Source of the DNA: a virus
Reading direction: 5' to 3' (one strand)
Length of the DNA: 34,303 bases
IMG/VR virus record: IMGVR_UViG_3300046534_000700
Location: 1-34,303 of that record
A program made the translations under genes and the position numbers. Below, piece after piece: positions 30,587 through 31,532 of the stretch. Every line of letters begins with the position of its first letter. Positions within the stretch are counted from its first letter, which is position 1. Below the pieces are notes generated by a model. The model saw only the letters and a list, made by a program, of their open reading frames with translations, ran no database searches and was not told where the DNA came from.

Positions 30587-31177
30587 TTACCCCTCTATTA
30601 CATAGTTTAATAGAGCGGTTCTAAGTGGCTCAGATTGTTGATTGGCTACTTCTGCTATGTATTTGTACTTGAATGCTTTGTAAGCTTCGTGTGCTTCTTT
30701 TGGCGTGTCGTAACAGCCTATAGTTTTCTTTTTACCGTAGGCCATGCAGTCAGCACGATATTTCCCCTTTTTCTTATTAAAGCAAACTCCCCTAGGAAAT
30801 TTACCCCTGACAGATGTGCAGTTGTTTAAAAAACTATTAATATCAGCATTAACAAAAATGCAAGTTAATGGGCTGTACACTTTGTTGTGTTGTATTAAAA
30901 TATCTTTATCAAGGCTTTTACCATGCCAATCCTGTTTATCCATCCATGAACTAAATTTACTAAAACTAAACCATTCACTAGCAACAGTACAGCCTATGTA
31001 TGTTGGCCATATTTTATGATGAGTTTCGCTATAGCACCTAGTTAACATGCTTGTCCAAGTTTTATAAAAAGGACATATTACACGTTTTCCATTAATTACA
31101 GATGAAGTAGCACATGCAACGTCATTTATTCCAACGCCACAAATTAGTTTTGTTCTTTTATAAATTCCACTTGGCAT
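30587..31177 (-). CDS. HNH/AP2-type homing endonuclease-like protein
   Basis: A 196-residue product. The N-terminal part has 'TWTSMLTRCYSETHHKIWPT', 'GCTVASEWFSFSKFSSWMD', then 'LDKDILIQHNKVYSPLTCIF', the pattern of phage HNH-type DNA endonucleases. The C-terminal 60 residues (FPRGVCFNKKKGKYRADCMA ... GCYDTPKEAHEAYKAFKY) are an AP2 DNA-binding domain. AGGAGG precedes the ATG by nine bases. Such genes are mobile and usually cut an intronless or empty site. It stands between the initiator and small early genes with a structured leader. Confidence 0.8.
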   Translation of the reverse strand: MPSGIYKRTKLICGVGINDVACATSSVINGKRVICPFYKTWTSMLTRCYSETHHKIWPTYIGCTVASEWFSFSKFSSWMDKQDWHGKSLDKDILIQHNKVYSPLTCIFVNADINSFLNNCTSVRGKFPRGVCFNKKKGKYRADCMAYGKKKTIGCYDTPKEAHEAYKAFKYKYIAEVANQQSEPLRTALLNYVIEG

Positions 31178-31191
31178 TTTATATTCCTCCT

Positions 31192-31268
31192 AATGTAAAT
31201 TAAACCTCTGTAAATATCTCTGATAAAGACTGCCCAGCTTATTATCAGTAAGCTGGGCTATTTACATT
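31192..31268 (-). ncRNA. candidate structured leader (pseudoknot) before the HNH/AP2 gene
   Basis: On the minus strand: TGTAAATA (31266-31259), 10-bp stem GCCCAGCTTA / TAAGCTGGGC (31258-31249 with 31241-31232), whose 7-base loop CTGATAA (31248-31242) is fully complementary to TTATCAG (31226-31220), and then TATTTACA (31216-31209) to close the outer stem. The AATGTAAAT arm can instead pair with ATTTACATT (31200-31192), which touches the Shine-Dalgarno AGGAGG. Upstream ACGGG/CCCGT (31280-31296) adds another small stem. The 127-base gap 31178-31304 holds no gene. Confidence 0.6.
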
Positions 31269-31304
31269 GGTGCTTGCAGACGGGGAGTCTACCCGTGTAT
31301 TTTA

Positions 31305-31532
31305 CTATAGTTTTTGTTTGATATCATTATTAATAGCTTTTTTATTATTAACTGTAAACTTATGAGATGTATCACCATTAAGTCGACCCCTCTGATAAGA
31401 TATGCGGTAGCCTTTTGGTGATTGTATTATGTCGCATTGGTTGGTCATAAAGCTGTTAATTAAATCAGAGCAAAGCTGTAATGCATCTGCGTCATCTAAA
31501 TTTGATTCGTTGTCTATTGTTATTCTGTTCAT
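31305..31532 (-). CDS. hypothetical early protein, 75 aa
   Basis: ATG 31532 has AAAGG 8 bases upstream; GTG 31541 in frame overlaps the previous gene and is less likely. The product (MNRITIDNESNLDDADALQL, then CSDLINSFM) has a beta segment followed by basic residues (KGYRISYQRGRLNGDTSHKF). Phage proteins beginning 'ITIxNExxlxDxdAL..V..VI' are familiar and always unassigned. Confidence 0.55.
   Translation of the reverse strand: MNRITIDNESNLDDADALQLCSDLINSFMTNQCDIIQSPKGYRISYQRGRLNGDTSHKFTVNNKKAINNDIKQKL

Follow-up and report, generated by a model that had tools for sequence, protein, structure and literature searches.

Does the RNA in front of a virus-borne HNH endonuclease gene act as a switch on the translation of that gene, and does it belong to the gene or to its surroundings? 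The question is raised by the minus strand of the window, the whole 34,303-base stretch analyzed here, a viral record with a P22-like portal gene, in which a compact pseudoknot-like leader with two exclusive folds had been predicted before an HNH/AP2 gene. The endonuclease half of that gene description was borne out (PHROG 953, E 1e-79), while the match to AP2 (PF00847) is weak and sub-threshold. The reading favored here, with a probability of about 0.55, is a cis-acting bistable pseudoknot leader that would tune translation of the HNH endonuclease, form part of a mobile HNH cassette and represent a reduced counterpart of the int-alpA-like RNAs.

Pairings and predicted folds of the window leader

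The pairings of the original prediction were all found at their minus-strand coordinates, which confirms the underlying observation (Table 1). The 139-nt leader folds with z = -3.2, none of 200 shuffles being equally stable. A perfect hairpin of at least 10 bp occurred in 108 of 5000 dinucleotide shuffles, and its combination with a loop pairing 3' over at least 6 nt in a single one of the 5000; a 7-mer with its complement twice downstream was seen in four of 5000 other shuffles. The leader is a genuine RNA element.

Table 1. Features of the HNH gene and its leader in the window (RNA letters for transcribed elements).
Feature	Position	Strand	Basis or remark
HNH endonuclease gene, 196 aa, C-terminal AP2-like domain	30587..31177	-	PHROG 953, PF00847
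Palindrome CUCUAUUA-AACUAUG-UAAUAGAG, 3' end of HNH gene	30593..30615	-	sequence
Shine-Dalgarno AGGAGG of HNH gene	31186..31191	-	sequence; unchanged in L023 save last G
85-nt block identical in window and L023/L024	31187..31271	-	sequence
Alternative stem, 3' arm AUUUACAUU	31192..31200	-	immediately 5' of AGGAGG 31191-31186
Tandem near-repeat, UUUAUCAGAG 31227-31218 and UUUACAGAGG 31214-31205	31205..31227	-	compared with int-alpA-like leaders
Outer stem, 3' arm UAUUUACA, then GAGG 31208-31205	31209..31216	-	sequence, folding energies
Pseudoknot, 3' strand UUAUCAG	31220..31226	-	7 bp with loop CUGAUAA 31248-31242
Inner hairpin, 10 bp, 7-nt loop CUGAUAA	31232..31258	-	folding energies; exact-copy search
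Inner stem, arms GCCCAGCUUA / UAAGCUGGGC	31258-31249 / 31241-31232	-	10 bp
Outer stem, 5' arm UGUAAAUA	31259..31266	-	8 bp with 31216-31209
Alternative stem, 5' arm AAUGUAAAU	31260..31268	-	9 bp with 31200-31192
5' hairpin P0, GUAGAC-UCCCC-GUCUGC	31276..31292	-	covariation with L023
Promoter-like TTAATA-18-TATAGT	31304..31333	-	consensus only

Drawn in full, the H-type pseudoknot is too tight: its pairings are present, but L1 and L2 are both 0 nt and 5 nt would have to span a 10-bp stem. As the complete 10-bp stem and the 7-bp loop pairing cannot coexist over connectors of 0/0/5 nt, the three loop-proximal A-U pairs must open; judged by A-form geometry, opening UUA/UAA would give a 7-bp stem with loops of 3/3/5 nt, a pseudoknot that appears feasible. 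Calculated with no pseudoknot term, the outer stem plus hairpin reaches -20.2 kcal/mol and the alternative stem plus hairpin -19.3 kcal/mol, a difference of 0.9 kcal/mol between the competing outer stems. In the predicted ensemble, AGGAGG is partly paired, with unpaired probabilities of 0.21-0.93. The proposal that two exclusive folds regulate translation retains its near-isoenergetic, mutually exclusive outer stems, while the alternative stem adjoins AGGAGG without covering it; because the Shine-Dalgarno sequence is adjoined instead of buried, we infer the effect of the leader on ribosome access and translation from the modeled folds.

The inner hairpin also invites a simpler explanation, an intrinsic terminator or attenuator in which some transcripts would stop short of the HNH gene, at the GC-rich 10-bp hairpin and the AGUCUUUAUC that follows it. 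A terminator scan does flag the hairpin, on either strand, as terminator-like; yet the tail AGTCTTTATC passes the loose scan only, the U-tract is interrupted and begins with AG, and the int-alpA-like relatives described below carry short P3 stems without U-tracts. As termination would also leave unexplained the outer stems, the loop complement and the conservation up to the ribosome-binding site, we consider it decidedly improbable.

Conservation and linkage to the HNH cassette

An exact search for the hairpin returned copies in two other viral contigs only, L023 and L024, which represent a second phage lineage and do not differ from one another around the HNH gene. The window and L023 have an 85-nt stretch without differences next to an HNH gene of 73% identity, and their downstream genes differ; the leader RNA is more conserved than the HNH gene behind it. 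A further related contig, L180, has retained the upstream genes together with the downstream gene's end, and there is no HNH gene between them. The same RNA before homologous HNH genes, with a different downstream gene in L023/L024 and no HNH gene in L180, indicates that the RNA travels with the HNH cassette, and on the same grounds the alternative of a leader belonging to a neighboring gene was rejected. The idea of a mobile-RNA remnant fits just in the sense of an RNA moving with a homing-type gene. A wider search for the window's exact class, with the model R2 across 137 sources, gave the two viral contigs and no further convincing match, and a search for close DNA relatives in named phages gave just short, weak matches around the ribosome-binding site.

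Upstream of the conserved core, two overlapped stems had been noted. AGAC/GTCT stands, extended to the hairpin P0 and kept in L023, while ACGGG/CCCGT is not kept. In L023, P0 reads GUGAAC-UCCCC-GUUCAU: two pairs have changed in a compensatory way, others show one-sided wobble changes, and the UCCCC loop is invariant. Covariation with L023 supports P0; since the window's class amounts to two distinct sequences with a core identical over 85 nt, there is no compensatory change in the pseudoknot, and neither it nor the alternative stem gains covariation support.

Identity of the whole sequence, loops included, and an invariant loop on a covarying 5' stem would also suit a protein-binding site, as in a static structured leader whose pseudoknot protects the 5' region of the mRNA or binds a protein (the HNH protein or a host factor) with no switching. 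We regard this as a serious but unlikely alternative: chance rarely yields an exact duplicated partner of the 5' arm (4/5000), the competing folds lie close in energy, and duplicated partners at the Shine-Dalgarno sequence are clearly in use among relatives.

Over its last 60 bases, palindrome included, the HNH gene is nearly identical between the window and L023, so both cassette ends are alike around a divergent core. The identical 85-nt block could accordingly also be explained by recombination, that is, a recent homologous exchange at the cassette ends to which the structure is incidental. We consider such a footprint very unlikely, as the structure is improbable by chance (1/5000 shuffles), P0 carries compensatory change and structured leaders occupy the same position in relatives. 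The ribosome-binding site of the following gene (DUF6291) overlaps with the palindrome.

int-alpA-like leaders and their bearing on the window RNA

Leaders of seven HNH relatives have a P1 stem enclosing P2 and P3, with the P3 loop pairing to the 3' tail, and most of the seven carry a promoter-like TATAAT. Their alignment (A2) has pairing in 85% of cells and two-sided changes in ten pairs, where shuffles gave 71% and five (0 of 500 as high); P1, P2, P3 and the pseudoknot covary. Two HNH leaders exceed the 35.8-bit cut-off of the Rfam int-alpA model RF02996 (L032, 39.6; L075, 38.6), and three further ones match it below the cut-off. A model built from the int-alpA-like leaders (R1) gave 31 matches, 27 of them distinct, each directly 5' of an HNH gene and among them the untrained leaders of Vibrio phage 1.198.A, Shewanella phage X14 and Aeromonas phage 4_4512. 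At 1925-2621 of L031, an HNH gene with an int-alpA-like leader lies on the strand opposite its neighbors, which is what a self-contained cassette would be expected to show.

The int-alpA-like leaders carry two complements of the P3 loop, one at site A, right after P1, and the other at site B, which overlaps the Shine-Dalgarno sequence (in L032, loop CUCGUAA, A UUACGAG and B CUACGAGG). Over 23 distinct leaders, with kinship not removed, the summed loop-to-A score is 334 and the summed loop-to-B score 315; permuting the loops across leaders gives 215 ± 12 and 226 ± 11, respectively, with 0 of 1000 permutations as high in either case. A predicted two-site pseudoknot switch architecture at the Shine-Dalgarno sequence is strongly supported for the related HNH leaders at the sequence level.

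Rfam lists int-alpA as an sRNA gene, and a literature search found it named in one paper, in passing only. Its cut-off is exceeded in 47 of 299 sampled genomes. Twenty bacterial int-alpA RNAs (L159-L178) have a second pseudoknot-tail site at the Shine-Dalgarno position, with score sums of 263 against 212 ± 8 for A and 295 against 249 ± 10 for B, the automatic loop cut being wrong or empty in a few rows. An open frame begins at most 30 nt downstream in most of the 20, and the proteins there are mostly without a Pfam match. Co-variation of the loop with both sites, together with the nearby open frame, suggests that int-alpA is a cis-acting translational switch; the class would gain a testable function, as its loop co-varies with a second, Shine-Dalgarno site outside the Rfam model.

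Where does the window RNA stand relative to this class? RF02996 gave no match in the window at the gathering threshold, nor with E up to 10. Rfam membership was rejected altogether, with nothing at the gathering threshold; below it, the best match was caiA (21.9 bits, cut-off 55.5), which owes its score largely to the ribosome-binding region and was discarded. The model R3, built from 31 HNH leaders, places its top match in the whole window on the HNH leader, at the correct place and strand, with a weak score (14.4 bits, E 0.62, or 0.0054 in 301 nt), aligning P1 to GCCCA/UGGGC, deleting P2 and P3 and following the tail through GAGGUUU. Pairing of a hairpin loop with the 3' tail, taken here as an int-alpA feature from the model consensus and the leaders, is present in the window (CUGAUAA/UUAUCAG, 7 bp), whereas a P1 enclosing P2 and P3 hairpins is absent.

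The two RNAs have in common the loop-to-3'-tail pseudoknot, what looks like a duplicated tail site and the setting of a short mobile-element leader just before a start codon; the window RNA differs from RF02996 in having no P2, no separate P1 and P3 and no UAG...GAAAA core. Its tandem near-repeat, UUUAUCAGAG/UUUACAGAGG, resembles sites A and B at a similar spacing, and the loop CUGAUAA pairs weakly with the second copy. The strand with two partners is an outer-stem arm in the window and the loop in int-alpA (RF02996), and its second partner in the window adjoins the Shine-Dalgarno sequence with no overlap. On the HNH tree, the window and L023 fall among HNH proteins with int-alpA-like leaders (modest to weak support), and leader type is labile, with 18 changes at weak support; dating the leader by this tree was dropped for that reason. 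By score, the window RNA falls outside int-alpA; it looks like a reduced, rewired counterpart. With the R3 match and the pairing of the loop to the second copy both weak and leader type labile, descent from int-alpA-like leaders is plausible at most.

Proposed mechanism and comparison with known systems

Under the bistable leader favored here, transcription would probably start from a promoter just upstream of the leader. A consensus scan found 6 promoter matches against 4.4 expected from shuffles, and a TATAAT stands in L023 and the int-alpA-like leaders at a place similar to that of the window's TATAGT. The RNA would fold into the 5' hairpin and the pseudoknotted hairpin within the outer stem, and the 5' arm of the outer stem would pair either with 31216-31209 or with the Shine-Dalgarno-adjoining partner 31200-31192, the balance between the two setting the ease of ribosome loading on the endonuclease mRNA. 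In the int-alpA-like HNH leaders, the hairpin loop would pair with either a decoy site or the Shine-Dalgarno site. The two-way fold in the window and the larger two-way RNA in nuclease relatives argue that RNA switches probably control the timing of translation of these selfish genes. This suggests how selfish nuclease genes may limit their own expression, by a compact, gene-borne RNA that gates the ribosome-binding site. A broader proposal, tentative and somewhat short of even odds, is that int-alpA RNAs are widespread two-site pseudoknot switches gating the translation of selfish genes and of prophage genes, that their conserved core may respond to a ligand or protein, and that in the window a minimal, rewired descendant leaves the choice of site to the outer-stem arm instead of the loop.

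HEARO, or omega RNA, before IscB is likewise a structured RNA 5' of an HNH-containing gene; the window differs in its protein, a 196-aa HNH/AP2 protein, and its RNA has no Rfam match at the gathering threshold. That RNA controls the ribosome-binding sites of homing endonucleases is established for T4-like phages (PMC2988022). The hairpins of I-TevI, segB and mobE in T4 and Aeh1 resemble the window in that RNA folds at a homing-type endonuclease's ribosome-binding site, but they are simple and relieved by an internal late promoter (PMC2988022), whereas the window has a predicted pseudoknot and two competing partners. In seg43(25) of Aeromonas phage 25, as in the window, a very stable hairpin lies just 5' of an endonuclease ribosome-binding site that it leaves uncovered; unlike for the window, a pseudoknot or alternative stem is not described in the review (PMC2988022). 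The tuning of HNH translation favored here would resemble what folded leaders do for T4-type homing endonucleases (PMC2988022).

Other HNH genes are preceded by RNAs of different appearance. Upstream of the HNH genes in L034, L042, L044, L076, L107 and L134, parts resembling group I introns were seen by eye; for L034, L042 and L044, Rfam returned nothing at the gathering threshold. The HNH leaders of L080 (1870-2001) and L113 (1270-1397) form a stem GCACCUU/AAGGUGC around a GNRA-like hairpin. An apparent loop complement in L080 was set aside as probably due to chance, since both L080 and L113 have GNRA tetraloops. The 3' arm of the stem holds the Shine-Dalgarno sequence in these two leaders.
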